From the IMG/VR virus record IMGVR_UViG_3300017779_000136, positions 1 to 25,024 of that record: 25,024 nt of DNA; one strand, written 5' to 3'. The stretch is from a virus. The notes under the pieces are model-generated. The model was not told the DNA's origin. It made no database searches and saw only the letters and a list, made by a program, of their open reading frames with translations. Both the position numbers and the translations under genes were made by a program. The stretch's first letter is position 1; every line of letters starts with the position of its first letter. Positions 2,940-25,024 of the stretch are shown piece after piece.

Positions 2940-3153
2940 AGTTGCAAAAGAAGCTATTATAAAACACGACCCAGAAGATGACTTGTCAGCTGACAGATTG
3001 AAAAATGCAGCAGCAACAAAAAAATTATGTATTATGGATGCGTTTGAAATATTAAACAGAATACAAGCGGAAAAAGAAAATATTGAATTAGCCGAAAAAG
3101 GATTTTTAAAAACTGATACAAAACAAGGATTTGCAGAAAGAAACTCCAAATAA
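2872..3153 (+). CDS. Small helical protein in the terminase small subunit position
   Basis: A 93-residue, almost entirely helical protein with charged surfaces (for example SADRLKNAAATKKLCIMDAF, then EILNRIQAEKENIELAEKG). It lies directly before the large terminase and overlaps its start by 23 bases. In tailed phages the small terminase subunit, which recognises DNA and starts packaging, usually sits here and has a similar size. No helix-turn-helix is obvious, so the functional name is positional only. The C-terminal GFAERNSK resembles the end of homologous small proteins in Bacteroidota phages as I recall them. Confidence 0.55.
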   Translation: MDSKNIKLEIIKAGYRAVEQLIKVAKEAIIKHDPEDDLSADRLKNAAATKKLCIMDAFEILNRIQAEKENIELAEKGFLKTDTKQGFAERNSK

Positions 3154-5377
3154 ATTATATGAAAAATTAGAAGGCATAATTCCAAAAAATGTTTTAACAA
3201 AACAAAATAAAACAAGAAAATGGAAGTATGGTTATAATTCTACTTATAATATAATAATCATATCTAAAACTGGACAGATAGGTGATATTATATCTATTAA
3301 TGGATTAGATATAGCATTACCATTATCTCCTGTATTTAGTCGTACACGACTAAAAAACAAAACTTCACAATACTGGGTTCGCCAAGAATATCCAAAAACG
3401 TTATCAAAAATTCAAACAATATTTCAGTGGAATGAAATGCCTGCTACGTTTAAAAATCTATGGGTAGATTATATTGAAAGAGAGTTTGAAAGAAGAGAAG
3501 AAGGGCATTGGTTTTTAAATAATGGTGAGCCAACATATATTACTGGTTCTCATTATATGTATTTACAATGGACAAAAATAGATGTAGGTTTCCCAGATTT
3601 TAGAGAAGCCAATAGATTGTTTTATATTTATTGGGAAGCGTGTAAAGCTGACCCTAGAAGTTTCGGTATTTGTTATTTAAAAATAAGACGTTCTGGATTT
3701 TCTTTTATGGGGTCAGAGGAATGTGCTAATATAGGTACTATATCTAAAGATGCTAGAATAGGAATATTATCTAAAACTGGTGCAGATGCAAAAAAAATGT
3801 TTACAGATAAAGTAGTTCCAATAACAAATAATTATCCTTTCTTTTTTAAACCCATACAAGATGGTATGGATAAACCAAAAACAGAATTAGCCTTTAGAGT
3901 TCCAGCCTCTAAAATAACTAAAAAAAATATGCATCTAAAAGATGAGTTTGAAATGGATGGTTTAGACACTACTATTGACTGGAAAAATACTGATGACAAC
4001 AGCTATGATGGTGAAAAACTATTATTACTTGTTCACGATGAAAGTGGAAAGTGGATAAGACCTAATGATATATTAAACAATTGGCGAGTTACTAAAACTT
4101 GTTTAAGATTAGGTAGAAAAATTATTGGTAAATGTATGATGGGTTCTACTTCTAATGCTTTAAACAAAGGGGGTAGTAGTTTTAAAAAATTATTTGAAGA
4201 TTCAGATATTAACAAAAGAAATGCTAACGGTCAAACAAAAAGCGGTCTATACAATTTGTTTATACCTATGGAATGGAATATGGAAGGTTTTATAGATAGG
4301 TATGGTATGCCTGTATTAGATACTCCAAAAAAACCTGTATTAGGTATTGATAATGAGCCTATTAATGTAGGTGCAATTGACTACTGGCAAAATGAAGTTG
4401 ATTCATTAAAATCAGATGCTAATGCTTTAAATGAGTTTTACAGACAATTTCCACGTACTGAATCACACGCATTTAGAGATGAAAGTAATCAATCATTATT
4501 TAATTTAACCAAAATATATCAACAGATAGATTATAACGATTCATTAATATTAGAGCAGCATACTACTCGTGGTTCTTTTCAATGGGATAATGGTATAAAA
4601 GATTCTAGAGTAATATTTTCTCCAAATAAAAATGGTAGATTTTTAGTTAGCTGGACTCCAGAGTTTAATATGCAAAACAGATATACAGAGCGTAATGGAA
4701 CTAAATATCCTGGTAATGAACACTTGGGGTCTTTTGGATGTGACTCTTATGATATTTCTGGAACAGTTGGCGGTAAAGGTTCTAACGGTGCTTTGCACGG
4801 AATGACTAAATTTAATATGGATAACGCTCCTAGTAATGAGTTTTTTTTAGAATATGTTGCTAGACCACAAACTGCAGAGATATTTTTTGAAGACGTATTA
4901 ATGGCGTGTGTATTTTATGGAATGCCTTTACTGTGTGAAAATAATAAACCAAGGCTTTTATATCATTTTAAAAACAGAGGGTATAGAGGTTTTAGTATGA
5001 ACAGACCAGACAAAACATATAACAAACTTTCGAAAACAGAAAGAGAATTAGGAGGAATTCCTAATTCATCAGAAGATGTAAAACAATCTCACGCAGCAGC
5101 AATTGAATCATATATTGAAAAATATGTAGGTATTGATTCTACTGGTACGTTTAGAGATGCAGATGAAATGGGTACAATGCCATTTATGAGAACTTTGGAA
5201 GATTGGGCGAAATTTGAGATAAACAATAGGACTAAGTATGATGCTTCAATTAGCTCTGGATTAGCTGTTATGGCTAATCAAAAACACCTATACACGCCTA
5301 CTAAAAAACAATCAAAAATAAGCATTAACTTTGCAAGATATGCTAATAAAGGAACTTTGAGCGAATTACTAAAATAA
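3131..5377 (+). CDS. terL: Terminase large subunit (DNA-packaging ATPase and nuclease)
   Basis: A 748-residue motor protein that pumps phage DNA into the procapsid and cuts it. The ATPase half has a degenerate Walker A-like loop at about residues 184-195 (KIRRSGFSFMG, lacking the classic GKT/S) and a clear Walker B at about 297-303 (LLLLVHDES, with D and E). The nuclease half shows the three acidic clusters of an RNase H-like fold: GCDSYDISG near 536, CENNK near 602, and SSEDVKQSH near 646. The length and the SHYMYLQWTKIDVGFPDF segment match crAss-like and flavobacterial phage terminases. The frame has no ATG before residue 99 and a stop at 3107, while similarity-rich sequence (KWKYGYNSTYN) begins about residue 30, so TTG at 3131 is the best start; AAGGA lies just upstream. 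It overlaps the upstream gene by 23 bases, and the portal ATG follows its stop with no gap. Confidence 0.93.
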   Translation: MQKETPNKLYEKLEGIIPKNVLTKQNKTRKWKYGYNSTYNIIIISKTGQIGDIISINGLDIALPLSPVFSRTRLKNKTSQYWVRQEYPKTLSKIQTIFQWNEMPATFKNLWVDYIEREFERREEGHWFLNNGEPTYITGSHYMYLQWTKIDVGFPDFREANRLFYIYWEACKADPRSFGICYLKIRRSGFSFMGSEECANIGTISKDARIGILSKTGADAKKMFTDKVVPITNNYPFFFKPIQDGMDKPKTELAFRVPASKITKKNMHLKDEFEMDGLDTTIDWKNTDDNSYDGEKLLLLVHDESGKWIRPNDILNNWRVTKTCLRLGRKIIGKCMMGSTSNALNKGGSSFKKLFEDSDINKRNANGQTKSGLYNLFIPMEWNMEGFIDRYGMPVLDTPKKPVLGIDNEPINVGAIDYWQNEVDSLKSDANALNEFYRQFPRTESHAFRDESNQSLFNLTKIYQQIDYNDSLILEQHTTRGSFQWDNGIKDSRVIFSPNKNGRFLVSWTPEFNMQNRYTERNGTKYPGNEHLGSFGCDSYDISGTVGGKGSNGALHGMTKFNMDNAPSNEFFLEYVARPQTAEIFFEDVLMACVFYGMPLLCENNKPRLLYHFKNRGYRGFSMNRPDKTYNKLSKTERELGGIPNSSEDVKQSHAAAIESYIEKYVGIDSTGTFRDADEMGTMPFMRTLEDWAKFEINNRTKYDASISSGLAVMANQKHLYTPTKKQSKISINFARYANKGTLSELLK

Positions 5378-7813
5378 ATGATAGAAACTAAAATAAATAT
5401 ATCTAATGTTGGGTTTCCTAATCAGTTTGCTTCTGAAGCAGAAATGGCTACAGAAGAGTATGGTTTGATGATAGGTCAAGCTATACAATACGAATGGTTT
5501 AGAAAAGATTCAAACAGTTGTAGATATTACAGTCAATGGCAAGACTTTAACAGATTAAGATTGTATGCTCGAGGAGAGCAGTCAATAGCCAAATATAAAA
5601 ACGAATTAGCGGTAGACGGAGATTTATCGTATTTAAATTTAGATTGGGCGATTGTTCCTGTTATTCCAAAGTTTATTGACTTAGTTGTTAATGGAATGTC
5701 AGACAGGCTTTTTAAAGTAAATGCATATGCTCAAGATGCTATGTCTCAAAGCAGACGAACGCAATTTCAAGATATGATTGAAGCTCAAATGGTTTCTAAA
5801 GATATGCTCAAAGCAGTTCAAGATAACTTTGGAGTTAATCCTTTTACAATGAGTCCAGAAGATTTACCTAATTCAAATGAAGAGCTAGCATTGTATATGC
5901 AGCTTAATTATAAGCCAGCTATTGAAATAGCTCAAGAAGAAGGAATAGATACTTTATTTGCTTTAAATCATTATGAAGATATTAGAAAAAGAATTGATTA
6001 TGATTTAACCGTATTAGGTATTGGAGCGGCTAAACACGAATTTGAACCAGGGAATGGAGTTAAGGTTTCATATATAGACCCAGCTAATTTAATTTATAGT
6101 TATACTGAAGACCCACATTTTAAAGATTGTTTTTATTGGGGAGAAATTAAAACTCTTGCAATAACAGAATTAATGAAAATTGACCAATCTTTAACAAAAG
6201 AAGATTTAGAAGAAATAAGTACAATGAGTCAACAGTGGTATGATTATTTTAATGTTGCTCAGTATTATAGTAATAGTTTGTTTTATAAAGACACCTGTAC
6301 ACTATTATACTTTAATTATAAAACTACTAAAAAGTATGTTTATAAAAAGAAGTATAATGAAAATGGAGGTTCTAAAATTATAGAAAAAGACGACCAATTT
6401 AATCCACCAGAAGAAATGATGGAGGATGGAAAATTTGAAAAAGTTGAAAAAACTATAGATGTTTGGTATAACGGTATTATGGTTATGGGAACTAATATTG
6501 TTTTAAAATGGGAGTTAGCTGAAAATATGGTAAGACCTAAGTCAGCTACACAGAATGCATTGCCTAATTATGTTGCAACTGCTCCAAGAATGTATAAAGG
6601 AGTGATAGAGTCTTTAACAAGAAGAATGCTACCATTTGCTGATTTAATTCAGTTAACACATTTAAAATTACAACAAGTTATATCAAGAGTCGTGCCAGAT
6701 GGGGTTTATATAGATGCTGATGGTTTAAACGAAGTTGATTTAGGTACTGGTAATGCATATAATCCAGAGGATGCCTTGCGATTATATTTTCAAACTGGTA
6801 GTGTAGTTGGAAGAAGCTACACACAAGACGGAGATTTTAATCAAGGTAAAGTACCAATTACACAATTAACATCTAACTCTGGAGCTAGTAAAACACAAAT
6901 GCTTATTACTAATTTAAATAACTATTTAAATATGATAAGACAAGTAACAGGATTAAGTGAAGCTAAAGATGGTAATACCCCAGATGCAAATGCATTGGTA
7001 GGTATACAAAAAATGGCTGCTTTAAATTCAAATACTGCTACTAGACATATTTTAGATGGAGCGTTATATATTTATAGAACTTTAGCTGAAGGGTTAACTC
7101 TTCGTATGGGTGATATATTGGAATACGCTGAATTTAGAGAAGAGTTTGCAAATCAAATTGGTAAATATAATGTTGCTGTTATTAAAGAAATGAATGACCT
7201 TTATATTTATGACTTTGGTATTTTTATAGAAGTTACACCAGACATAGAAGAAAAAGCACAATTAGAGCAAAACATTAGTTTAGCATTATCTAAAGGTGAT
7301 ATAAACTTAGAGGATGCAATTGACATAAGAGAAATACATAATTTAAAACTTGCTAATCAACTTCTTAAAATGAAGAGGCTGAAAAAAGAAGAACAAGACA
7401 GGCAGTTTGAAATGCAGAAACAACAGCAGCAGAGTCAAATACAAATGCAGTCTCAACAGTTGGCGGCTCAAACAGCTATGCAAAAAATCCAAGCTGAAAG
7501 TCAAGCTAAAATGCAATTAGAACAAGCTAAAGTAGCTTTTGAAATTGAAAGACTAAATGCTGAAGCACAACTTAAAGGTACATTAATGGACAAAGAATTT
7601 GGGTACAACCAACAGCTTAGAGATATTAGTGAAAAGTCTTTACAGCAAAGAGAGACTCAAAGAGAAACTGCAAAGTCTGATAGAATAACACAAGCTAATA
7701 ACGAACAGTCTAGATTGATTAATCAACGACAAAACAATTTACCACCTCAACGATTTGAATCTAATGAAGATAGTTTAGATGGTTTTAATTTGTCGGAGTT
7801 TGAGCCAAGATAG
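5378..7813 (+). CDS. Portal protein
   Basis: An 811-residue protein immediately after the large terminase, as is usual for portals, which form the dodecameric DNA gate at one capsid vertex. Segments typical of large portals of crAss-like and related phages are LDWAIVPVIPKFIDLVVNGM (about residue 88), YIDPANLIYSYTEDP (about 232) and VTGLSEAKDGNTPDANALVG (about 521). Residues about 665-760 are a long Gln-rich helix (MQKQQQQSQIQMQSQQLAAQ), corresponding to the C-terminal barrel or crown helix of portals. The protein ends with a Glu/Asp-rich tail. It is followed by a 55-base gap with a promoter box. Identification by motifs and position is strong. Confidence 0.9.
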   Translation: MIETKINISNVGFPNQFASEAEMATEEYGLMIGQAIQYEWFRKDSNSCRYYSQWQDFNRLRLYARGEQSIAKYKNELAVDGDLSYLNLDWAIVPVIPKFIDLVVNGMSDRLFKVNAYAQDAMSQSRRTQFQDMIEAQMVSKDMLKAVQDNFGVNPFTMSPEDLPNSNEELALYMQLNYKPAIEIAQEEGIDTLFALNHYEDIRKRIDYDLTVLGIGAAKHEFEPGNGVKVSYIDPANLIYSYTEDPHFKDCFYWGEIKTLAITELMKIDQSLTKEDLEEISTMSQQWYDYFNVAQYYSNSLFYKDTCTLLYFNYKTTKKYVYKKKYNENGGSKIIEKDDQFNPPEEMMEDGKFEKVEKTIDVWYNGIMVMGTNIVLKWELAENMVRPKSATQNALPNYVATAPRMYKGVIESLTRRMLPFADLIQLTHLKLQQVISRVVPDGVYIDADGLNEVDLGTGNAYNPEDALRLYFQTGSVVGRSYTQDGDFNQGKVPITQLTSNSGASKTQMLITNLNNYLNMIRQVTGLSEAKDGNTPDANALVGIQKMAALNSNTATRHILDGALYIYRTLAEGLTLRMGDILEYAEFREEFANQIGKYNVAVIKEMNDLYIYDFGIFIEVTPDIEEKAQLEQNISLALSKGDINLEDAIDIREIHNLKLANQLLKMKRLKKEEQDRQFEMQKQQQQSQIQMQSQQLAAQTAMQKIQAESQAKMQLEQAKVAFEIERLNAEAQLKGTLMDKEFGYNQQLRDISEKSLQQRETQRETAKSDRITQANNEQSRLINQRQNNLPPQRFESNEDSLDGFNLSEFEPR

Positions 7814-9019: not shown

Positions 9020-10468
9020 ATGGCAGGAGCTATTGAAACAGGTGGTTTGTTAAATTTTCAGTTGCAGCCTAGTGCGCAGCAGATTACTACTCAAACTAAC
9101 TACATTAGTAACTTCGATTTTTTAAGTACATATCTACCAGATACGTATGAAAAAGAATTCGAACGTTACGGAAACAGAACAGTATCATCATTCTTAAGAA
9201 TGGTAGGTGCTGAAATGCCGTCTAACTCAGATATGGTAAAGTGGGCGGAACAAGGAAGATTACATACTAAGTATACTGGAGTTACTCTAGGTTCTTATGT
9301 AGGTAACGAAACTACGCAAGTATTAACAGTACCATTAGCACAAATCGACCCAGCTACTCAGCCTTCAACAGGTGCAGCAGGAGGGATTGCAATCAGAGTT
9401 GGTCAAACAATTATGATTTCTGATGAGACTGCAGCGTCAGCTTTTAGTAACAAAGCAGTTGTAACTGCTGTAGATTATCCTAACAGACAATGTACAGTTG
9501 CATATTACGAAGCTACTCAAGCTGCTTATGCAAATGCGTCAACAATGTCTATATTTGTTTATGGGTCTGAATTCAGAAAAGGAACAGATACAATGGCAGA
9601 TACTTTAATCTCTGATGACTCTATATTCAGTAATTCACCAATTATCCTAAAAGATACTTACAGAATCGCAGGTTCTGATATGGCTCAAATTGGATGGATT
9701 GAAATATCTGGAGAAGACGGAGCTAACGGATACTTATGGTATTTAAAGTCTGAACACGACACAAGATTACGTTTTGATGACTACTTAGAAACAGCAATGA
9801 TTGAAGCAGTACCAGCAGTAGCAGGTTCTGGAGCAGCAGCTGCAGTTTCACCAGTAGGAAACAAAGGTACTGAAGGTGTATTCCACGTTGTTGGAACAAG
9901 AGGTAATGTATGGTCTGGAGGTAATCCAGTTGACTTACTTGAGTTTGACCAAATTATCGAAAGATTAGATAAGCAAGGTTCTATTGAAGAAAATGTTATT
10001 TTCTTAAACAGAAACTTTGGTTTTGATATTGACGATATGTTAGCTTCTCAAAATTCTTATGGTGCCAACGGTACTTCATACGGATTATTTGATAATGATG
10101 AGGAAATGGCGTTAAACTTAGGTTTCAGAGGATTCCGTAGAGGATATGACTTCTACAAGTCTGACTGGAAATACTTAAATGACCCAACAATGAGAGGTGG
10201 TTTAGTTGGTGGAACTATTAATGGATTAATGGTACCAGCAGGTTCAACTACTGTATATGACCAAGTTTTAGGTAAAAATGCTAAGAGACCATTCTTACAC
10301 GTTAGATATAGAGCTTCAGAAACTGAAGACAGAAGATATAAAACGTGGATTACTGGAGGAGCAGGAGGCGCTACTACAAGTGGTGATGACTTAATGCAAG
10401 TTAACTTCTTATCTGAAAGATGTGTATGTACTTTAGGTGCTAACAACTTCTTCTTATTCAAGTCGTAA
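9020..10468 (+). CDS. Major capsid protein, HK97-fold, crAss-like type
   Basis: A 482-residue protein after the scaffold. Segments resembling crAss-like and flavobacterial podovirus coat proteins are LPDTYEKEFERYGNRTVSSF (about residue 39), SDMVKWAEQGRLH (about 69), FRKGTDTM (about 191) and GYLWYLKSEHDTRLRFDDYL (about 237). Residues about 90-190 form a Thr/Ala/Gly-rich beta insertion that could be a surface domain. The protein is Ala/Gly-rich with few cysteines, as expected for an abundant shell protein. Its mRNA has a leader hairpin and a strong terminator 14 bases past the stop, consistent with very high expression. No cleavage site for a prohead protease is evident. The HK97 fold is inferred from family resemblance. 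Confidence 0.88.
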   Translation: MAGAIETGGLLNFQLQPSAQQITTQTNYISNFDFLSTYLPDTYEKEFERYGNRTVSSFLRMVGAEMPSNSDMVKWAEQGRLHTKYTGVTLGSYVGNETTQVLTVPLAQIDPATQPSTGAAGGIAIRVGQTIMISDETAASAFSNKAVVTAVDYPNRQCTVAYYEATQAAYANASTMSIFVYGSEFRKGTDTMADTLISDDSIFSNSPIILKDTYRIAGSDMAQIGWIEISGEDGANGYLWYLKSEHDTRLRFDDYLETAMIEAVPAVAGSGAAAAVSPVGNKGTEGVFHVVGTRGNVWSGGNPVDLLEFDQIIERLDKQGSIEENVIFLNRNFGFDIDDMLASQNSYGANGTSYGLFDNDEEMALNLGFRGFRRGYDFYKSDWKYLNDPTMRGGLVGGTINGLMVPAGSTTVYDQVLGKNAKRPFLHVRYRASETEDRRYKTWITGGAGGATTSGDDLMQVNFLSERCVCTLGANNFFLFKS

Positions 10469-14040: not shown

Positions 14041-17000
14041 ATGGCTAAAACTTTAAGAAACTTTATACAAGGACGAATGAATAAAAGCGTTGATGAACGA
14101 TTAGTTCCTCAAGGCGAATATATTGATGCGTTAAACGTTAGACTTGGCTCTACTGAAAATTCTGAAATTGGTTCTGTAGAAAACTCGAAAGGTAATGAAT
14201 TATTAATTACTCCAGAGTATCCAAGTGGAACTACATATGGATTTAAAACGTTAGGTTCTTTTGCAGACACTGCTAATGAAACTATTTATTGGTTTGTTCA
14301 CGCAGATGCAACTGGTCTAGGAGCAACAAATGTTTTAGATATAGTTTTATCTTACAATATAATTTCTAAACTTACAACTTACCATATGATAAGTATTGAT
14401 GATGGTAGTGGTACACAATCAACATTAAATTTTACAGACAAATATTTAATTAACGGAATTAATAAAGTAAATAATTTAATATTTTTTACTGACAATTACA
14501 ATCCCCCTAGATTTTTTGACGTTACAAAAAACTATGAAAATCCTACAGCAGGTAATATTGACCAATTTACAGCAGAAGAAGTTTTAGTTATTAAAAAGCC
14601 ACCAATGGCTGCTCCGTCAATACAACTACTTAACATTGTAAATGATGAGACTTATTTAGAAGAAAGATTAATTTGTTTTGCTTACAGATATAGATATGCA
14701 AATGACGAATACTCAGCTACATCTCAATTTACGCAGCCAGCTTTTGACCCAAAATCATTTAATTTAAGTTTAGAAAGTGGATTAAATGAAGGTATGGTCA
14801 ATGAGTTTAATGCTGTTAACTTATCTTATAATACAGGGAGTTCACTAGTAAAAGAAATACAAATACTTTTTAAAGAAGCTGATAAAAATATAATAAAAGT
14901 TATAGAGTCATTTAATAAAGAAGAATTAGGTTTAGGTGATAATAATACGGAAACAGTTCTTTTTGATAACAGCAAAATATTTACAATTTTAGAAGATTCT
15001 GAAATTTTAAGGTTATATGATAACGTTCCTTTGTTAGCAAAATCTCAAACATTAATGGGTAATCGATTAATGTATGGTAATTACTATGAGGGTTATGATT
15101 TAGTAGACTCTACAAATGAGCCTATTATTTTTAATTATGTAACTGAACTTGACTCTACAATAGTTAACGAAACAGACTTGCCTATAACAAAACAAAACGC
15201 AGCTATAGATATGGATTGTACGTCTGGTTCTCCAGTTACTTATACGGTAACTGATGGACAAATGATAGTCTATTTGACTGAGGATGGGTTAGTTAGTGGG
15301 ACTCCATTAGTGTTAAAACAAGGTGCTTCTTTAGTAATGGATATAAGTTTTAATCATCAAGGTTTTGGTGGTAATATTTCTGGTGCTTTCACACCGCCAG
15401 ATGCTTCTGGAGCAGTTAACAATTTACAAATTGAATTTGTTTTTCCAAGAAATTACACGAGTGCTTTTGATTTAGCTACTAGTAGTGAATTTATACAGTA
15501 TATAGGCTCACCAACAAACTTTACTACAGTTCAAAATTGTGCAAATGGAGTTAACGTTTCATCAATTTTTAATTGTATAGTTCCACAGAATTTAATTAAT
15601 GCTAGTGGAGGAAGTAGTACTACTTTAACAAAATGCTGGAGTGGAACAAGCGACACTTTTTGTACTGGAGGAACACCTACACAAGATTTTGCATTTGCAA
15701 ATTTAGGAATAGTAACAAGCACAACAGACGCTAATGTTATAGGTATTAAATTAATGGCTATGGCTTATGTTGACACTTGTGTTTATTCTGGAGGAGCAAC
15801 TGCTACTCAAGTAGTTTTTAATTATTATAAAATTGTATCTTCAGATGCAGCATATAAAGATGTTTCTAATCCTAAAACATTAAAAAGTAATAGAAACTAT
15901 GAAACAGCTATAGTTTATATGGATGATTTTGGAAGAAGCTCTACTCCTATTGTAAGTCCACAAAATACTATTCCAGTTCCTTGTAGTGAATCTACTTCAG
16001 TAAATAAAATTAAAGTAACAATTCCTGTAGCAATGAAAGCTCCTAAGTGGGCGAGCAAATATAAATTTGTTGTTCAGCCAGATAGAGATACTTACAATAC
16101 TATTTATACTAATATATTCTTTTTAGACCCTAACTCTACTAGAGTATGGTGTTTATTAGATGGGGAAAACGCACAAAAAGTTGAGAAAGGTGATAGGCTT
16201 ATAGTTAAAAGAGACACTATTGGAATTCAATCAAATTGTGTGTATACCACTGTGTTAGAAAAAGAAGCACAAGTAAAAGACTTTATAACAATCCCAATTG
16301 AGGGGTCTAGTCCTGCTCGTAATGTAGCTATACCTTCTGGTTCTTATATGGCGCTAACACCATCAAATTGGTCAGCTGCCACTGATAACAATAATATTTA
16401 TAATCCAGGCAGTAGCGCTTTAAATTCTGATTGTTCTGGTGGTGGCGGTAATTGGGAAAATCCAAATGAAGGGGGAGGTAATGCTGTAACTGGATATTAT
16501 CCTTTTTCAAATTTAAACCCTACTGCTGCAAACCCACCAACTGTTACAGACCCAAAATATGTTGATGTTGATGTTCCTCAAGGAAGTGTAATTAATTGGT
16601 TTATGAAATTTGAAAGACGTGGACCTGGTGATGGAAACAGAAGTTGTGAAAGAGTTGTTTATACTTTAGACCTGCGTGGTTTAGTAGCTAGAAATTCATA
16701 TGCAAATGTGTATGATTGGTTTATTGGAGATAATATTGAAACTCAATTAAACTCTGGAACTTGGGATGTAGGAGATAGCGGAAGTAATGGTAATTTTATT
16801 TTCGATGACACTTTATACTATGCTGGTACAACTACCTCAACCGAATGTGGTACTGCAGTACCAGCATCTCAAACATTTGGTACAGATTTAGTTAAAACTT
16901 ACTATATGCGTTTTGCAAGAGCTAGTAATAACGCTGGTAGTGGAGAAAATAATATTTTAATGGCTGTTGTTCAAGGTGGAACTAATTGTGGAAGAAGTGA

Positions 17001-19773
17001 TAAGCGTAGGTCGTCTTTAAAAATGGATGTTCAAATAATTAGAAGTGAAGCAACTTTAGTTTTTGAGTCTGAACCTTTAGATGCTTCTCCAGGAATATTT
17101 TATGAAGGAGAAGATAATTACGATATAACTGGCGGTCTTCATATGTCTGGAACAAATGTTAACGATGTAAATCAAACAGCATCAGTCGCTGGCGTAGTAT
17201 ATTTAAATAATTTTAATGCTTTTACATTTGGTAATGGAGTTGAAAGTTATAAAATTAGAGATTCAATTTCTGGAAAAGGATTTTCTTTAGGTAACAGAGT
17301 ATTCGGAGCAACAGAGCAGATATATAAAAGAGCGCATAGATTTTCTGATATTACATACAGTGGAATATATAATGACGAGTCAAACATAAATAAATTAAAC
17401 GAATTCAATTTAGGTTTAGTAAACTTTAAACAACTTGAAGAATCTTATGGACCAATAGAAGTATTGTCTGGAAGAAAAACAGATGTTCTTGCTTTACAAG
17501 AAGATAAAATTACATATGTTTTAGCAGGTAAAAATCTTTTGTCTGATGCTGCTGGAGGAAGTTCATTAACATCGGTTCCAGAAGTTTTAGGAACTCAAAT
17601 TGCAAGAGTAGAAGATTATGGTATTAGTAATAACCCAGAAAGCTATACTGAATGGGGTGCTGATAAATTTTTTACTGATGTAAAAAGAGGAGCTATAATT
17701 CAATTAAAAGGAGTAGGTGGTACAAACGAAGCATTAGGAGTAATATCAGAAAGAGGAATGAGAGGATATTTTAGAGATTTATTTATTGAATCATCACAAA
17801 CACAAAAAATTGGTGGATTTGACCCTTATATGAATGAGTACGTATTAAGTATTAATAACACATTATTACCTCAACCAGACTTAAAATATAATTGTGGTGT
17901 AGATGTTAGCTTTATATGTGAAGCGGGTACTCCACAAACTTTTGTATATTTATTAAACAACGAATCTGGTAATGCTAGATTTAATTATAATGTAGGCTTA
18001 ACAAGTGGAAGTACTACAACCTTTGTAGCTACTTACGTAGATGGTAGTGGTGTTACACAAACTGTTACAAGCGGAGCTGTATCGACAGATGGATTTATAA
18101 CTATTATTAGAGACGTTCCTTCTATAACAGAAGTGTCAATTACCGCTACACAGACAGCTGGAAATAGCGAATGGACTATACGTCAAGATTGTCCACTTTC
18201 AGCCACATTAAATGTTGTGCAAGTTTGCTTAACAAGACAAGACGAAGACACATTGTCTAATTACAATCAGTTTTTTTGGAATATTTTTCCTGCAGCTTCG
18301 CCAGCGCCTCCATACTCTACTAATCCATTATATAGCTCTCCGACTACATCTACGTTTGTAGATTTTCAAAGTGGAGCTACACCAACTGTTTCTCAGTATT
18401 CAATGATAACTGGTCAAACAGGACTGGGGTCTTTTCCTCCAAACGGTGCATATGTGACTATACAATCTAACAAATTACCTCCTGCTAATTTTCAATTTGA
18501 AATACCTGGAGATAAGTTTAGATATTTAGAAAGCAATACATTATATCAAAACAACGCTACTGATATCAATGCTTTAGTCGCTGCTTCTACACAAACTAAC
18601 ACTAATTTTGCTGGACAACCAACTTTGTTTAACGGACAATTTGCTAGGGCTTCAAATACCACGTATTTATATATGATATGGGATTACAGAAATTTAACTT
18701 CAGTTCAATTAAGATATCAAGCTGGTACAGCAGATTTAACTGCTGATAGATTTAATGCGTGCTGTGTTAATGCTCAAGCTTTTTATTCTTTAAATGGAGC
18801 TACATTATCTAGCGCTACTGTAGTATATACTAGTCAAACACAATCAACTCCAGCGGCAGATGGATATTATAGTGATGGTGTTGTTGTAAGACTACAAAAA
18901 AATTCTGTTCTACAACCAGATACAACAAACTGTACGTGCGGTATAAGTTGTGGACCTAGTGCAATTTATTATAAAACAGCTGCACCAAGTGTATTTCAGT
19001 CGAGACATTTATTTACAGCTTCAACTGGAGCGGTAGTAATTACTTGGCTACCTTGGGAAATGCCAAAGGGTATAGATGTTATTTATAATGGAGTTAGATA
19101 TAATAAATGGACTTCACAAACATTTGGGGATGTTAGTCCAAATAGTTTAAATACTCCAGTATATTTAGGTGTAAATGGTACTGGAACTTTACCTACTTCT
19201 GGAAACTATCCAGTAGCTGAACTAGACTCTGCAAGTCAATATGTGGTGATTCCTAATACTACTCAATATGTTGCAGTAGGTACAGGACAAATTAAAACAA
19301 CTGCAACTAATCCACAAGTGTGTACTTTAGTAGTTCCTAAAACAAGTGCTACAACTAATTATTTAGATGTAGAAATTTTTAACTTACTATCAAGCTCTGA
19401 CTATTTATCTACATATTTTAGTGTAGCTTGTCCAGTAGCTTTAACAAGTGCAGATGCTGATGTAACACAAACAAATAGTACATCTGCTTTAGCTTGTGGT
19501 GGAGCAACTGACCAGGGAGGAAGTATATTTGTTATACCTAGTCAATACCCTGGAGCTGGAGGATGGTCAGTTGGAACAAGAGTATATGCTAATGCAAACG
19601 GAACATCTCCTGCTGTTAATACAGACTCAGCATCCCCTGGATATGCTGATAGAACATTTAGTACAGCTGGATTTGTTTTAACAGGAATTACTGACCCTGG
19701 AACAGGAGGAGAGCAAGCAATAGAACTTAATGATGAAAGTGTAATAATATCCGTTGTAGGATGCACACCTTAA
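14041..19773 (+). CDS. Tail muzzle / stabilisation protein, T7 gp12-like, very large
   Basis: A 1910-residue protein with the signature start of the family: FIQGRMNKSVDERLVPQGEY, IDALNVRLGSTENSEIGSVE and NSKGN. This family forms the short tail tube or muzzle that controls DNA exit, like T7 gp12 and P22 gp10. A second conserved block at about residues 1065-1270 includes ESYKIRDSISGKGF, NKLNEFNLGLVNFK, EDKITYVLAGKNLLSDAAGG, EWGADKFFTDVKRGAIIQLK and FDPYMNEYVLS. Residues about 1280-1910 differ: beta-rich, Ser/Thr-rich and with many cysteines (for example CTCGISCG near 1631), resembling Ig-like or adhesive insertions. A Gly-rich loop (SGGGGNWENPNEGGG) lies near 800. The next gene, 11 bases later, resembles the C-terminal module seen in homologues. 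Confidence 0.85.
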   Translation: MAKTLRNFIQGRMNKSVDERLVPQGEYIDALNVRLGSTENSEIGSVENSKGNELLITPEYPSGTTYGFKTLGSFADTANETIYWFVHADATGLGATNVLDIVLSYNIISKLTTYHMISIDDGSGTQSTLNFTDKYLINGINKVNNLIFFTDNYNPPRFFDVTKNYENPTAGNIDQFTAEEVLVIKKPPMAAPSIQLLNIVNDETYLEERLICFAYRYRYANDEYSATSQFTQPAFDPKSFNLSLESGLNEGMVNEFNAVNLSYNTGSSLVKEIQILFKEADKNIIKVIESFNKEELGLGDNNTETVLFDNSKIFTILEDSEILRLYDNVPLLAKSQTLMGNRLMYGNYYEGYDLVDSTNEPIIFNYVTELDSTIVNETDLPITKQNAAIDMDCTSGSPVTYTVTDGQMIVYLTEDGLVSGTPLVLKQGASLVMDISFNHQGFGGNISGAFTPPDASGAVNNLQIEFVFPRNYTSAFDLATSSEFIQYIGSPTNFTTVQNCANGVNVSSIFNCIVPQNLINASGGSSTTLTKCWSGTSDTFCTGGTPTQDFAFANLGIVTSTTDANVIGIKLMAMAYVDTCVYSGGATATQVVFNYYKIVSSDAAYKDVSNPKTLKSNRNYETAIVYMDDFGRSSTPIVSPQNTIPVPCSESTSVNKIKVTIPVAMKAPKWASKYKFVVQPDRDTYNTIYTNIFFLDPNSTRVWCLLDGENAQKVEKGDRLIVKRDTIGIQSNCVYTTVLEKEAQVKDFITIPIEGSSPARNVAIPSGSYMALTPSNWSAATDNNNIYNPGSSALNSDCSGGGGNWENPNEGGGNAVTGYYPFSNLNPTAANPPTVTDPKYVDVDVPQGSVINWFMKFERRGPGDGNRSCERVVYTLDLRGLVARNSYANVYDWFIGDNIETQLNSGTWDVGDSGSNGNFIFDDTLYYAGTTTSTECGTAVPASQTFGTDLVKTYYMRFARASNNAGSGENNILMAVVQGGTNCGRSDKRRSSLKMDVQIIRSEATLVFESEPLDASPGIFYEGEDNYDITGGLHMSGTNVNDVNQTASVAGVVYLNNFNAFTFGNGVESYKIRDSISGKGFSLGNRVFGATEQIYKRAHRFSDITYSGIYNDESNINKLNEFNLGLVNFKQLEESYGPIEVLSGRKTDVLALQEDKITYVLAGKNLLSDAAGGSSLTSVPEVLGTQIARVEDYGISNNPESYTEWGADKFFTDVKRGAIIQLKGVGGTNEALGVISERGMRGYFRDLFIESSQTQKIGGFDPYMNEYVLSINNTLLPQPDLKYNCGVDVSFICEAGTPQTFVYLLNNESGNARFNYNVGLTSGSTTTFVATYVDGSGVTQTVTSGAVSTDGFITIIRDVPSITEVSITATQTAGNSEWTIRQDCPLSATLNVVQVCLTRQDEDTLSNYNQFFWNIFPAASPAPPYSTNPLYSSPTTSTFVDFQSGATPTVSQYSMITGQTGLGSFPPNGAYVTIQSNKLPPANFQFEIPGDKFRYLESNTLYQNNATDINALVAASTQTNTNFAGQPTLFNGQFARASNTTYLYMIWDYRNLTSVQLRYQAGTADLTADRFNACCVNAQAFYSLNGATLSSATVVYTSQTQSTPAADGYYSDGVVVRLQKNSVLQPDTTNCTCGISCGPSAIYYKTAAPSVFQSRHLFTASTGAVVITWLPWEMPKGIDVIYNGVRYNKWTSQTFGDVSPNSLNTPVYLGVNGTGTLPTSGNYPVAELDSASQYVVIPNTTQYVAVGTGQIKTTATNPQVCTLVVPKTSATTNYLDVEIFNLLSSSDYLSTYFSVACPVALTSADADVTQTNSTSALACGGATDQGGSIFVIPSQYPGAGGWSVGTRVYANANGTSPAVNTDSASPGYADRTFSTAGFVLTGITDPGTGGEQAIELNDESVIISVVGCTP

Positions 19774-19784
19774 AATAATTATAT

Positions 19785-20609
19785 ATGGCATTTACTAATC
19801 AAACAGTTACTTATAGCGAAACTTCTGCAGGTTTTCCATCTTTTTATTCTTTTATACCAGAACAAATATTAGGAATGAGTGGGTATTTGTATACTTTTTT
19901 TCAAGGTAAATTATATCGTCACAATGCTGATAATGTAGAAAGAAATAATTATTATGGGGGACAATTTAGTTCTTCGATTACTAGTGTATTTAATCAAGCT
20001 CCTTTAGAAAACAAACTGTTTAAAACCCTATCTATTCAATCAGATAGTAGTTGGTCGGCAACTGTAAAGTCAGATATACAAGACACAGGATTTATTACTA
20101 ATACTTTTTTTGTAGAAAAAGAAGGTGAGTTTTTTGCTTATTTAAGAAACAATAACGCTAATCCAATAAGCGGTGAGTTTCCATTACGTTCGGTACAAGG
20201 TGTCGCTAGACAATCTGTAAGAACTGGTGTAGGTACTGCTACTTGTGTTTTAACATTTAGTATGAGTGTAGATTTAGGTTCAATGATAAACATTAATGAC
20301 ACTGTATATTTTGCGCTTGGACCTTTTGGACCAACAGATATTTTAACTCCAGTTGAAGCTGGTAAAATAACAGCTATAACTTTTGATTTAGCTACAAGTG
20401 TAAATACTATAACGGTAAACAATACTGGTGGTACTACAACAAGCTTTCCAACCAGTGGTACAGAAGTATATATTATGTATATAAAAAATCAAATTGCCGA
20501 GTCTAATGGCATCTTAGGACATTACGCTGAGTTTACTTTAACAAATGCAGATACTACTGCAACAGAACTGTTTGCTGTAGAGTCAGACGTTATGAAAAGT
20601 TTCCCTTAA
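19785..20609 (+). CDS. Muzzle C-terminal-like tail protein
   Basis: A 274-residue protein beginning 12 bases after the muzzle stop codon. FPSFYSFIPEQILGMSGYLY, FFQGKLYRHNADNVERNNYY and SITSVFNQAPLENKLFKTLS (residues about 16-85) match the module I recall at the C-terminal end of muzzle proteins in related phages, typically 'sFyS..Pe...g.....y.f..G.ly.hn...r..fyg'. Here it is a separate gene. Later residues form another beta domain (ITAITFDLATSVNTITVNNT) and the end is helix/strand with Ser/Thr. It probably assembles with the muzzle at the tail tip. Tail-fibre docking is an alternative role. Confidence 0.65.
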   Translation: MAFTNQTVTYSETSAGFPSFYSFIPEQILGMSGYLYTFFQGKLYRHNADNVERNNYYGGQFSSSITSVFNQAPLENKLFKTLSIQSDSSWSATVKSDIQDTGFITNTFFVEKEGEFFAYLRNNNANPISGEFPLRSVQGVARQSVRTGVGTATCVLTFSMSVDLGSMININDTVYFALGPFGPTDILTPVEAGKITAITFDLATSVNTITVNNTGGTTTSFPTSGTEVYIMYIKNQIAESNGILGHYAEFTLTNADTTATELFAVESDVMKSFP

Positions 20610-20637: not shown

Positions 20638-21162
20638 ATGAGTAGTTCTGATAATTTAATAGCTCAAAATATTTTAGGGCAAATACCTGCATCAAGGGGT
20701 ATCTTGTGGGAAAAAATTGAGAACTTTAAAAACAAAATCAGCATTATTGAGGGAGCTTTAACACATAATCCTGGAGATGAACAATCTGAGGGATTAAAAA
20801 AAACAGCTCCTTTAAAACACCATTTCGAAGGTGGCTTATATACTAGAGAAATTTTTATGCCAAAGGGAGCGGTTATTGTAAGTTTAATACACAAACAAGA
20901 ACACCCTTCTTTTTTGCTTAAAGGGGAGTTGTCATATTTAACTGATGACGGAGAGATAGTTAGAGTAAAAGCTCCACATACTGTGTTCACAAAAAAAGGG
21001 ACACAAAGAGTGTTTTATATACACGAAGATGTTGAGTGGAGTTGCGTTCATAAAACTAATGCAACAAATGTTTTGGATGCAGAGTTAGAGTTATTTACAA
21101 ATAATTACAGGGAGCTACCCAGTGATGTAATAAATATAAAAAAAGAAATATGGCAGCAGTAG
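20638..21162 (+). CDS. Cupin-fold phage protein
   Basis: A 174-residue protein. Residues about 60-140 follow the cupin pattern: KHHFEGGLYTREIFMPKGAV, then IVSLIHKQEHPSFLLKGELS, then GEIVRVKAPHTVFTKKGTQR, then VFYIHEDVEWSCVHKT. Histidines in the first and second cupin motifs (IHKQEH, and IHEDVEW with a later H) could hold a metal. Such proteins are common in marine phages near tail genes and are usually annotated only as cupin or structural. The front 55 residues form a separate helical segment. It has its own promoter box and overlaps the next start by 13 bases. An enzymatic or sugar-binding role is possible; none is shown. Confidence 0.72.
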   Translation: MSSSDNLIAQNILGQIPASRGILWEKIENFKNKISIIEGALTHNPGDEQSEGLKKTAPLKHHFEGGLYTREIFMPKGAVIVSLIHKQEHPSFLLKGELSYLTDDGEIVRVKAPHTVFTKKGTQRVFYIHEDVEWSCVHKTNATNVLDAELELFTNNYRELPSDVINIKKEIWQQ

Positions 21163-22106
21163 GTTTATTAATAGCAGGATTAGCATTGTCAGCTGGAGGA
21201 ATGACAGTAAATTTTGTTCAAGCAGCAGCACAAAGAAGAGCAGCAGCTGATGCAGAATATGATGCTGAACAAGCATTGTTGAAAGCAAGAGAAAAATTAG
21301 ACACAAACTTTTATAAAAATCTTTCTATAGGTAAAGAAAAATATGAATTAGAAAGAGAGGCTTTGTTGTCGGCTGGAGCGCAAGCTACAGCAGCTGGAGC
21401 TGAAAGTGAAAGAGGAGCAGCAGCAGTTGCAGGTAGAGTTTTAGCTGCACAGAATCAAGCGCAAGCAAAACAAAGAGTTGCAATGGGAGCGGAGCAACAA
21501 AAAATTGATATGTTAGTTGCACAAGAAGATGCTAGGCTTAGAGATATTGGAGTTCAGTTAGATTTAGAAGAAGTAAAAGGAGCGCAAGTTGCAGCAGGAA
21601 GAGCTGAGCAACAAGCTAATCTATATACAGCAGCAGGTATTCAAGGAATTGGAGATACATTAAAAGCTGGTGTTAGTTTAGGAACAGGTATAACTGATAA
21701 TAGAGCAGCAGCTGGTGGTGACGCAGGGAAAGTACAAGACCGTGCTTTAAAAGCTGGATTTAAAGATACTAAATTATCAGATGGAACTGTTAAAACTGCA
21801 GGTCAAGCAGCAATAGAAGCTTTTCAAAACGACCCTTCTGGAATGCAATTTAAAGGTATGGACTTTACAGCTACGTTTGATATAATGAATAGACCTGCTA
21901 TGGACGCTCAAGGAAACTCTCAAATTGGAGGAGTAAATGCATTTTATGACCAAATGAATAGTCAACTAGGACAACAAGGATTTAAAGATTTTAGAAAGTT
22001 TTTAAAAGGCTATCAAATACCAGATGGAAGTTCTGGAACAATTGATAAACCATTAGCGATAAATAATTATACTATGCCAGATGGAACTCCAATGATGGCA
22101 ATGTAA
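21150..22106 (+). CDS. Internal virion / DNA-ejection protein, T7 gp14-like
   Basis: A 318-residue protein. The N-terminus is a Gly/Ala hydrophobic segment (AAVGLLIAGLALSAGGMTVN) able to cross a membrane, followed by an Ala/Glu/Arg-rich helix of about 140 residues (QAAAQRRAAADAEYDAEQAL onward; AGRVLAAQNQAQAKQRVAMG; AQEDARLRDIGVQLDLEEVK). This is the usual layout of podovirus internal proteins such as T7 gp14, which leave the capsid first and form a pore in the host outer membrane. Residues after about 190 are Gly/Asp/Asn-rich and less ordered. It is coupled to the cupin gene by overlap and precedes another likely internal protein. The role is inferred from layout and position. Confidence 0.68.
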   Translation: MAAVGLLIAGLALSAGGMTVNFVQAAAQRRAAADAEYDAEQALLKAREKLDTNFYKNLSIGKEKYELEREALLSAGAQATAAGAESERGAAAVAGRVLAAQNQAQAKQRVAMGAEQQKIDMLVAQEDARLRDIGVQLDLEEVKGAQVAAGRAEQQANLYTAAGIQGIGDTLKAGVSLGTGITDNRAAAGGDAGKVQDRALKAGFKDTKLSDGTVKTAGQAAIEAFQNDPSGMQFKGMDFTATFDIMNRPAMDAQGNSQIGGVNAFYDQMNSQLGQQGFKDFRKFLKGYQIPDGSSGTIDKPLAINNYTMPDGTPMMAM

Positions 22107-22121
22107 TGAAAAATATAAAAA

Positions 22122-24245
22122 ATGGCTAAAACATATATAGGATACGCACAAAGAGAAGCAGAAACAAATGTAAACTGGGGAGCAGTAGCAACTCAATTTT
22201 CAGATATGCTTACTGAACAACAAAAATTAAAAGAAGAAAATGAAGCTGCTGATGCTTTAGTAACACAAGAGTTAGCTACACAATTACAAAGCGCTCCAGA
22301 GGGAGGAGACCAGGAGTCAAGTGATTATATTTTAGATTATGTAAACAATGCATCTAATTACAACTTAATGTTAAAACGTAATTTAGATAATGGTAGTATG
22401 AGTCGTAAACAATTTACTAAACTATCTCAAAACCTTTCCAATGGTACTGCACAAATTATAGCTATTGCAAACAAATACAATGGCTACTTAGAAGAACAAC
22501 AAAAAAGATTAGAAGAAGATAAGTTATCTGGAAAAGATGGATGGGCTGCAGGAAAAGTTCAAAGCTTTAATGACTTTAGAACTACAGCTGCATTTATAGA
22601 CCCTGTTACTATGAAGGTGTCAAATGGTAAGTTAGTTACAAAAGAAGTAGACGGTAAAAAAGTAAGAGCATTATCTACTAACACAGCAGACTTTCAGCAA
22701 GTTAGTACTATGTTGGGATGGATGGGTCAAAAAACAGATAAGTTTGATGTTAATGCTGCAATTGAAAGTTCATATAAAATGCTTGCACCTGCCTATCAGC
22801 AAAATAAAGATGATGGAAGTATACGAGATGACATTAGACAAAATCCTAAATTTAAAGATGCATCAAAAAAACAACTAATGTCTTATCTAAGTACTCCAGA
22901 TAATGTAGGTAGTATACTATATGACTTTGCAAGAATGTCACCAGACGGAACTCCGTGGGAGTTTACAGATGATGTAAATAAAGAAAAAAACAAAAATGCT
23001 ATTTATATGAAACCAAATGACGCTGGTGTTTATAATATAGACTTAGAAAGTAAGCAAGGTAAGTATTTACAGGAAGAAGCTTATAAAGTTTTATCAGCTC
23101 AATTAGATTTAAAGATACCTAGAAAAACTACAAAAAAAGCTACTGCTCCTGGGTTTGATAAAGATGCTGCAGCTTATCAAACTGAAAATATACAAATATT
23201 TGACGCTGCATCTAACTGGATGAATCTTAGAAATGCAGTAGGTACATCAAATTTTGTAGCTGCTAAAAATGCTATTATAGCTGAATCTCGTAATAACGAT
23301 AAAATGATAGACATTACAAATATTGAACAAGTAGGAGATAAATTAACTGTTACTTATTTTGATAAAAACACTAATGCAAATGTTGCTTTGCCAATATCAA
23401 TGTTGGGTGATAATAGAGACTTTTTAACTCAAGGAAGTTTTTATATTGGTAGTACTCCTAGTGAAATGCAAAATAGACTTGGTAAAGTTAACTATGGTAA
23501 ATTAATAAGTGGGCAAAGACTAATGGGTCAAGATAATCAGTATGTTAATTTTAATTCACCAGGAATATCAGAAACTGATATACCGTACAATGCGCTAGCA
23601 ATTGAAGTGGGTTCTGGAGATACTGCTAAAAACATAAGTCTTAATGATTATATAACTAACATTGACGATTATGTAGAAGGTGATGGTGCCGATGCTTTAT
23701 CATTTGGTTTAAATGAAATATTCGCTAAACAAACTAATCCAAATAAATCTAAAAATCTTAAAGGATTAATTATAGATAAATTAGAAGGAGATAAGGTGAT
23801 AGAGGTTTATTTACCAGAAGTAATGACAGCTCCAGTTTATTTAGAGGTGGATGAGCCATCTATTACTAATGCTGTTGTAAGAAAAATTTATACTGCACTA
23901 AATGAAGACGGTAAAATAACTCCTAGAGAACTATCAAAAATGTTAGGTAAACAGTATCTTAAACAAGAACAGTTTATAATTAACAGAAAAAAAGATAATA
24001 AACTTGACCCTAATGTTCAATGGAACGATGGTATGGGTAGACAACAAGAAGATACTCGTGTTAAGGTTACTGAGGCAGTAGTCTTTACTGAAGAGCCAGA
24101 CAAAATTAAAGGATATGAATTTGGGAAGGCTCCAAATCTAGTAGAAATCAAAAGAGCTTATGAAGCAGCTGGCGAATTCTTAACATACCCAGAGTACCAG
24201 CAGTTATTCTTACAAGCACAGGAACATTATAGGTTAAAAAAATAG
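22122..24245 (+). CDS. Putative internal virion protein, function unknown
   Basis: A 707-residue, mainly helical and charged protein with no membrane segment and no recognisable enzyme motif. It begins TYIGYAQREAETNVNWGAVA and continues with helical QFSDMLTEQQKLKEENEAAD. Later parts include DFRTTAAFIDPVTMKVSNGK, a lysine-rich linker RKTTKKATAPGFDKDAAAY (about residue 338), and a mixed domain around 400-530. In podoviruses the genes after a gp14-like protein usually encode further ejected or capsid-stored proteins (T7 gp15 and gp16; crAss cargo proteins). That is the most likely role here. It follows the upstream gene after 15 bases and precedes the next gene by 5. Confidence 0.6.
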   Translation: MAKTYIGYAQREAETNVNWGAVATQFSDMLTEQQKLKEENEAADALVTQELATQLQSAPEGGDQESSDYILDYVNNASNYNLMLKRNLDNGSMSRKQFTKLSQNLSNGTAQIIAIANKYNGYLEEQQKRLEEDKLSGKDGWAAGKVQSFNDFRTTAAFIDPVTMKVSNGKLVTKEVDGKKVRALSTNTADFQQVSTMLGWMGQKTDKFDVNAAIESSYKMLAPAYQQNKDDGSIRDDIRQNPKFKDASKKQLMSYLSTPDNVGSILYDFARMSPDGTPWEFTDDVNKEKNKNAIYMKPNDAGVYNIDLESKQGKYLQEEAYKVLSAQLDLKIPRKTTKKATAPGFDKDAAAYQTENIQIFDAASNWMNLRNAVGTSNFVAAKNAIIAESRNNDKMIDITNIEQVGDKLTVTYFDKNTNANVALPISMLGDNRDFLTQGSFYIGSTPSEMQNRLGKVNYGKLISGQRLMGQDNQYVNFNSPGISETDIPYNALAIEVGSGDTAKNISLNDYITNIDDYVEGDGADALSFGLNEIFAKQTNPNKSKNLKGLIIDKLEGDKVIEVYLPEVMTAPVYLEVDEPSITNAVVRKIYTALNEDGKITPRELSKMLGKQYLKQEQFIINRKKDNKLDPNVQWNDGMGRQQEDTRVKVTEAVVFTEEPDKIKGYEFGKAPNLVEIKRAYEAAGEFLTYPEYQQLFLQAQEHYRLKK

Positions 24246-24250
24246 ATTAT

Positions 24251-25024
24251 ATGGCTGTTGAAGAAAACAAAAATTCAGTATTTACCACTGGAGAGTTCTA
24301 TGATAACTTTGTGGTTGATAAAGATATGTTTCCTACGTTCGAATCATTTACAGAATTTTATGAAGGTGCCAAACCAGAGGATGTATATGGAGCGGTTGAT
24401 AAGGAAGTTTTTACTAGTTTTGAAGACTTTGATGAATTCTTTGATATTTCATCTACAAGTTCTGAATTTGATGATGCAGGTGGTGTTAACTCAGCAGGCG
24501 CTAACAGAAGTTGGTTTAAAGATACTTTTAAAAAATACTTTAGTCAACTACCACTGATGTCTTCAGACGAAAAAAAAAAGAAACCGCTTCCAGCTGGTGG
24601 AGATGAAAATATTATTTTCGATTTAGCAACTGAAGAAGTTGTAACTCCAAAAGAAGTTGACTTACTAAAAGGTGATATGCCTTTAAAAAAAGGAGTTAAA
24701 GGTGGAAGTGATTTTATGGCTTTGCAAGAAGGTGAGAATACGTACGCAGCTGATGCAAGAAACAGAGATGCGAACGCTCTTGATGTTTTTGAAATTAATG
24801 AAGATGGTTCATTAAAGAAGAAGTTTTATTCAAAAGAAAACAAAAAAAGACAACAAAATTACCAAGACATACTGTTGTCTGTTAATGAAGTAGACTATAC
24901 TCCTAACAATATTATAAAAAGCTTACAAGAAAATATAGGTCCTTATGGTTTTGTTATTGACAATCCTTATCAAGGCTTTGCTCAAAAAGCAAAAGATACT
25001 TATACACAGCCATTTAGAACAAAA
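24251..25024 (+). CDS. Start of a longer virion-associated gene with N-terminal repeats (3' partial)
   Basis: ATG at 24251 opens a frame with no stop for 258 codons to the window edge; 5 bases separate it from the previous stop. The first 65 residues contain two related acidic/aromatic units: EFYDNFVVDKDMFPTFESFT followed by EFY, and EDVYGAVDKEVFTSFEDFDE followed by FF. Similar 'lYdal...y.lgsfeeF' repeats open very large proteins in other Bacteroidota phages as I recall. A linker with KKKKPLPAGG follows, then an acidic region and FYSKENKKRQQNYQDI. Position after the internal virion genes suggests a large ejected protein, which in crAss-like phages may carry an RNA polymerase or lytic enzyme; neither is visible in this fragment. 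Confidence 0.8.
   Translation, partial: MAVEENKNSVFTTGEFYDNFVVDKDMFPTFESFTEFYEGAKPEDVYGAVDKEVFTSFEDFDEFFDISSTSSEFDDAGGVNSAGANRSWFKDTFKKYFSQLPLMSSDEKKKKPLPAGGDENIIFDLATEEVVTPKEVDLLKGDMPLKKGVKGGSDFMALQEGENTYAADARNRDANALDVFEINEDGSLKKKFYSKENKKRQQNYQDILLSVNEVDYTPNNIIKSLQENIGPYGFVIDNPYQGFAQKAKDTYTQPFRTK

Follow-up and report, generated by a model that had tools for sequence, protein, structure and literature searches.

A predicted short sister protein recoded from the start of a giant gene in crassvirus-related phages

The structural gene block and the giant gene at its end

The window analyzed here is the whole of a 25,024-base virus record, and its plus strand carries a block of structural genes. 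The terminase large subunit (3131..5377) is followed by the portal protein (5378..7813), a virion structural protein at the position of the major capsid protein (9020..10468; phrog_13704), a 1,910-aa virion structural protein (14041..19773; phrog_14478), a 274-aa protein with a crassvirus muzzle C-terminal domain (19785..20609; PF25729), a 318-aa virion structural protein (21150..22106; phrog_13764), and a 707-aa protein with a weak PHROGs match of unknown function (22122..24245). Between structural genes, at 20638-21162, lies a gene whose 174-aa product has a cupin match too weak to pass the Pfam cut-off. The block ends with the 5′ part of a giant gene, directly downstream of the gene for the 707-aa protein; its 258 codons (24251..25024, plus strand) remain open at the edge of the window.

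The 1,910-aa structural protein was used to find relatives. It matches proteins of 87 Cellulophaga, Flavobacterium, Tenacibaculum, and Maribacter phages and of MW202828, all at less than 60% identity. In tblastn searches of phage records, neither the window ORF nor the RYG..GRWF tail described below gave a match. The first-pass annotation had taken the last gene to be truncated at the edge, and two relatives bear this out: in L002 (87% identical) the ORF runs for 945 codons to the contig end without a stop, and in L003 (75% identical) it is complete at 2,919 codons and is followed by genes on the opposite strand.

The giant of L003 and 13 others have in common an invariant H-E-x-G-H and a later glutamate, the former reading HEFGH in L003 and its relatives, which we take to be a zinc-peptidase-like motif. 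Domain searches among the 14 giants gave matches to GNAT, ART-PolyVal, and DUF3293 in single members and to DUF6861 in two; the L003 giant has no GNAT or ART-PolyVal match, and the window is cut before those regions. The HExGH motif and the GNAT and ART-PolyVal matches of single members are in keeping with the polyvalent-protein theme. The window gene's position and its 2,919-aa relative characterize its product as a giant multidomain protein within a structural block. The further suggestion that the rest of the protein holds a virion RNA polymerase or a wall-cutting domain found no support. Domain searches turned up no RNA polymerase, there is no DxDxD in the L003 giant, the DxDxD strings of five other giants lie mostly in acid-rich stretches, and no lysozyme match was found among the 14 giants in Pfam, NCBIfam, or PHROGs. 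The L003 giant had no sequence match among solved structures. A kinase-like reading by eye of part of its residues 1160-1690 is not claimed, the AlphaFold model being poor there (pLDDT 55). The positional relative of the giant in Cellulophaga phage phi18:3, gp123, is annotated from virion MS/MS; its link to the window giant consists of position and a chain of weak matches via elemoF and MW202828.

N-terminal units and their exchange between phages

The giant gene opens with two similar short units. The first covers residues 15-41 (EFYDNFVVDKDMFPTFESFTEFYEGAK; 24293..24373, plus strand) and the second residues 43-66 (EDVYGAVDKEVFTSFEDFDEFFDI; 24377..24448, plus strand), as recognized from self-similarity and alignment to the units of other phages, with borders drawn by eye. 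The best self-match of the window ORF pairs VDKDMFPTFESFTEFYE with VDKEVFTSFEDFDEFFD (residues 22-38 and 49-65, an offset of 27) at a score of 56 and z=7.0, with p=0.003, the floor of 300 shuffles, so that the two units reported by the first-pass annotation stand. The same shuffle test is at its floor for L003 and L008, and gives p=0.020 for L009, p=0.027 for L010, and p=0.086 for L011. A profile made from the units of other phages scores the window unit at 3.1 bits and does not recruit it; the window unit is linked to that family by an alignment via L018, by shared position, and by the two-unit layout.

The loci of relatives were gathered in two scans (62 and 80), which led to 92 candidate ORFs, of which 75 distinct giant N-termini were kept and 17 dropped as other genes or as not representing the true start. 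Internal duplication at p<0.05 is found in 63 of the 75; the stretch from residue 301 to 380 in these proteins gives 2 of 69, and the starts of other ORFs give 14 of 200. Short N-terminal repeats therefore do recur in the giant proteins of related phages, as had been anticipated, and the isolates among these phages infect Flavobacteriia. The units fall into several unrelated families that occupy one slot, including the GYxKSxxDF, LKDFVATSNxGKY...KFPE, and TPNG...RSKYG types and others. Units of the GYxKSxxDF type, in L083, were modeled as two helical hairpins, that is, four short helices (pLDDT 82), and this model had no fold match among solved structures at E<=0.001.

The repeats had been suggested to serve as tags by which several cargo proteins are packaged into the capsid. 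The place of the gene within a structural block, and a positional relative that is a virion protein, would suit such a role. Their distribution, however, argues otherwise. A profile of one unit family, family A (the GYxKSxxDF type), matched 41 of 1,804 ORFs at E<0.01, and every match lies within residues 1-69 of the giant. L048 accounts for one of the 41, a short N-terminal piece, and a few of the matched proteins have an additional, weaker match further in. In 15 whole records the family-A unit is confined to the N-terminal region of the giant gene, normally in two copies. In G003, G005, and G012, whose giant gene is split or runs into the record end, the unit match is on a short open frame; G002 and G004 have one weak third match in the same ORF, and G001, with no family-A match, bears a different unit family. 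Neither search thus found a shared tag on other cargo proteins, and the unit sequence is not conserved between phages. We consider a general tag quite improbable, although the repeats could still act as a docking module.

Two other proteins drew attention during these comparisons. The C-terminus of the 707-aa upstream protein resembles one unit by eye, and the protein is absent from the profile's listed matches. Homologues of the ~360-aa protein encoded at 7869-8966, in the interval between portal and capsid genes, give weak repeat-profile matches (E about 0.08-1.4), placed consistently at about residues 63-95 in the homologues of other loci.

The N-terminal modules appear to be exchanged as cassettes between relatives, judging from two pairs of phages compared over part of their genomes. 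The L014 and L029 giants are unrelated up to residue 57 and 95.6% identical from there to the end of the comparison; the 13 other compared gene pairs are 85-100% identical. Between phi18:3 and phi13:2, six capsid and tail proteins are 95-99.8% identical, three others 68-83%, and the giant 87%; the modules are unrelated, and the alignment of the giants begins only after them. Next to the junction of module exchange, the C-terminal end of the 707-aa upstream protein varies among otherwise near-identical relatives (homologues in L013, L014, L029, and L003). L160 and L205 combine near-identical slip region and tail (see below) with two unrelated N-terminal module families, an apparent module exchange.

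The A-tract, the hidden -1 frame tail, and the GGGAAA sites

Downstream of the units, the window carries a putative slippery A10 tract (24570..24579, plus strand; GAA AAA AAA AAG AAA), the sole sense run of at least nine As in its plus-strand ORFs. The reading GAA AAA AAA AAG contains the in-phase heptamers A AAA AAA and A AAA AAG. A run of at least nine As is located at nt 115-420 in 67 of the 75 giants, in all three codon phases, and is exactly A10 in 55. In L010 and L011 the A10 lies further in, at codon 156-159, and in phi18:3 an A9 lies in a small ORF just upstream of the giant; including these three, a tract of A9-A17, usually A10, follows the N-terminal module in 70 of 75 genes, and five giants have none (L055, L060, L061, L062, L064). 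Across 2.16 Mb of coding sequence there are 70 sense runs of at least ten As, all in the 5′ part of the giant gene: 62 belong to the set of 75, and 8, within the first 160 codons, to giants dropped as duplicates. Likewise, lysine triplets are spelled A9 in 63 of 75 cases at this site and in 11 of 405 elsewhere. This concentration of A10+ runs and A9 lysine triplets indicates that the phages shun long coding A-tracts elsewhere.

The deposited tract is A9 in five isolates, namely the four Cellulophaga phages phi18:3, phi19:3, phi13:2, and phi46:3 (NC_021794, NC_021789, NC_021803, and NC_021792; L005, L148, L149, and L150) and Maribacter phage Panino (PP540027; L154). In these records the module either forms a small gene of its own or lacks annotation, and a later start is assigned to the giant. 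Either the giant itself requires a slip in these phages, or the count is a matter of sequencing.

In most giants, the -1 frame past the tract reads KKKR.YG[I/F]x[I/F]GRWF[I/F]G and then stops. The patterns for this tail were written after the tails had been viewed, while the reading frame was not selected for; with this in mind, the strict motif RYG[I/F]x[I/F]GRWF[I/F]G occurs in the -1 frame of 37 of the 67 tract-bearing giants and a loose form in 49 of 67, and neither occurs in the 0 and +1 frames of the same 67. With synonymous codons reshuffled, the count averages 0.01 for strict and 0.41 for loose motifs and never exceeds 1 and 2, respectively. An open -1 frame of 18 codons or more is found in 94% of the real genes and 22% of the reshuffled ones. 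When DNA was scanned for the tail alone, at least 120 stretches were recovered. Over all collected loci, which are partly redundant, all 166 motif matches fall in the -1 frame relative to the longest ORF, 162 of them between codons 41 and 120 when numbering begins at the preceding stop or at the contig start. The core of the tail is nearly fixed among 144 distinct tail loci (G 144/144, W 143/144, F 141/144, G 144/144). A consensus tail found no sequence match among solved structures. A scan of genome contigs for the tail returned four matches, of which those in L274 and L276 were judged by context to be chance.

These results bear on an alternative in which the A-tract does no more than encode lysines that the giant needs as a basic linker, and a conserved in-frame S..DGSS motif yields the -1 peptide as a by-product. 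A motif of this kind is indeed seen in many giants, and AAA is the usual lysine codon of the window (397 AAA, 73 AAG). But codon preference does not account for A9 triplets concentrated at one site; the tract is found in all three phases, with EKKN and QKKN among its readings; synonymous reshuffling destroys the -1 motif; and the phages with GGGAAA in place of the tract, described next, retain the -1 tail without the lysines. We find this alternative hardly credible.

The 144 tail loci comprise 96 with at least nine As (78 of them A10), 29 with an in-phase GGGAAA, 11 with another heptamer, and 8 with no site. In one of the last, L020, the contig piece begins too late; L158, L171, L174, L199, L237, L241, and L267 have a -1 tail behind no recognized slip site. 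GGATTTTC, which may be an alternative shift site, recurs among some of the tract-less loci. GGGAAAG, which is also the slip site of phage lambda, occurs in 17 of 33 tract-less loci. Near-duplicates aside, 24 GGGAAA sites remain, and in 16 of them a perfect stem of 6 bp or more begins at +5 to +7, compared with 6.5% of shuffles; stems at other start positions score lower. The A-tract sites, the class to which the window belongs, have a stem in 25 of 92 cases against 20% of shuffles, with no excess of the kind seen in the GGGAAA class. The GGGAAA phages arrive at the same tail as the A-tract phages. We infer that the GGGAAA class would use ribosomal -1 frameshifting and the A-tract class polymerase slippage.

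The lineage of the window differs in one respect. All nine distinct members keep an A10, A14, or A17 tract, at codon 91-159, and the -1 extensions are short and differ between branches: KKKETASSWWR in the window and L002, KKKGTTSSWWR in L003, KKRRKISR[I/S] in L008 and L009, and KKNK... in the L010 group. In none of the nine members does the -1 extension contain the RYG..GRWF motif. In the window, the extension ETASSWWR ends at the TGA at 24604-24606 (24580..24606, plus strand), which gives a short product of 118 residues, predicted from the tract alone. In this lineage the tail may have lost or changed its role.

A recoding event could, of course, serve regulation only, by lowering the output of the giant, in which case the short product would be a by-product or would be degraded via its hydrophobic C-terminus. 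Points in favor of such a device are the small size of the short product and its hydrophobic tail, a zero frame that holds the longest ORF in every case, and a window lineage that conserves the tract and not the tail. A mere stop signal, on the other hand, has no need of a nearly fixed tail core reached via two types of slip site, and we regard a purely regulatory role as distinctly unlikely. A further option is that the modules face the host: the variable leader of an injected protein would meet a host factor, and the short form would be a second injected effector or decoy. Exchange of the kind described above, in which unrelated module families are swapped between close relatives with no change of a partner gene in the compared regions, is frequent in host-facing parts of phages. 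The high conservation of the tail behind different modules points instead to a conserved phage partner, and no host target is known; host-facing modules thus seem to us an unlikely explanation.

Proposed roles and comparison with known recoding systems

On the evidence of these sequence comparisons, it is probable that the gene makes both a giant virion protein of the polyvalent type and a recoded short sister protein that shares the N-terminus of the giant. Part of the time, expression would involve a slip on the A-tract, more likely by RNA polymerase than by the ribosome. The unslipped message would yield the giant protein, and the slipped message a short protein of ~80-130 residues, made of the module, the lysines, and the RYG[I/F]x[I/F]GRWF[I/F]G tail. 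In the phages with GGGAAA and a stem six bases downstream, a ribosomal -1 frameshift would yield an equivalent short product. Members of the window lineage retain the module and the A-tract, with a tail that has diverged past recognition.

What would the short form do? Most likely it would be an adaptor inside the particle, and we favor this because it accounts most simply for modules that vary, a tail that does not, and exchanges that involve no partner. Its exposed C-terminal tail would dock on a conserved part of the virion, while its N-terminal module would associate with the identical module on the giant. Such self-pairing would allow a module to be swapped without co-changing a partner gene. 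If it is a minor product, however, the short form may be too scarce for a stoichiometric adaptor. The annotations of phi18:3 and its relatives also have to be weighed: gp122 of phi18:3, which bears the repeats, is annotated as hypothetical and not as MS-detected, and its homologues in phi19:3, phi13:2, and phi46:3 carry 'structural' notes that were assigned by similarity and are ambiguous.

It is tempting to go one step further, though only tentatively, as the full picture is less likely than not to be right. A broad, mostly aquatic group of crassvirus-related phages might use the start of a giant cargo gene to make a small virion protein that has escaped recognition, having kept or invented two unrelated recoding mechanisms to reach one C-terminal docking tail, with a swappable module that pairs with that of the giant and so can be replaced without change in any other gene. 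Tail chaperones and capsid genes supply the best-known examples of recoding in phages, and the giant cargo gene of a widespread phage group would add a second conserved case. It would also add a protein that annotation has missed, as five isolate genomes split the giant gene or start it later at this place. Two recoding mechanisms with one product would constitute a natural experiment, and with short swappable modules joined to a short conserved tail, particle loading and protein ejection would become open to direct tests.

Both A-tract slippage and -1 frameshifting are established forms of recoding. The short sister protein itself appears so far undescribed, and the literature searched, in which subscription journals are mostly missing, holds no account of either process in the giant gene family. 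As for the giant, it resembles the polyvalent proteins of Iyer et al. 2017 (PMC5512222) in being a giant multidomain protein of a structural block with a metallopeptidase-like motif; a term search of that paper's text found no mention of frameshifting or tandem repeats. In phi-crAss001 (PMC10172136), cargo genes likewise come after the tail genes, and the window has the crassvirus muzzle domain. Unlike the cargo of that phage, the giant is not an RNA polymerase subunit by motif, and positions 20000-69900 of crAss001 are without the tail motif.

The A-tract class has its closest parallels in two bacterial genes. In tssM of Citrobacter rodentium, transcriptional slippage on an A11 run, at about 20-25%, gives two proteins, both of which are needed (PMC4256274), and in Thermus dnaX slippage takes place on runs of 9 A or T (PMC5009743). 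The common features are a run of ~9-11 As within the gene, no special stem, and products with a common N-terminus and different C-termini. The differences are that here the gene is a giant phage gene whose predicted short product has a conserved tail of its own, and that the case is built from sequence. The GGGAAA class, for its part, recalls the G/GT genes of phage lambda, where a -1 ribosomal frameshift operates (PMC5009743). The products in both cases share an N-terminus and are encoded in the structural block; going by the lambda slip site named above, an in-phase GGGAAAG is also common to the two, and in the GGGAAA class an early stem follows it. In contrast to lambda G/GT, the frameshift proposed here would yield the shorter product, the gene is not that of a tail chaperone, and related phages use an A-tract in its place.
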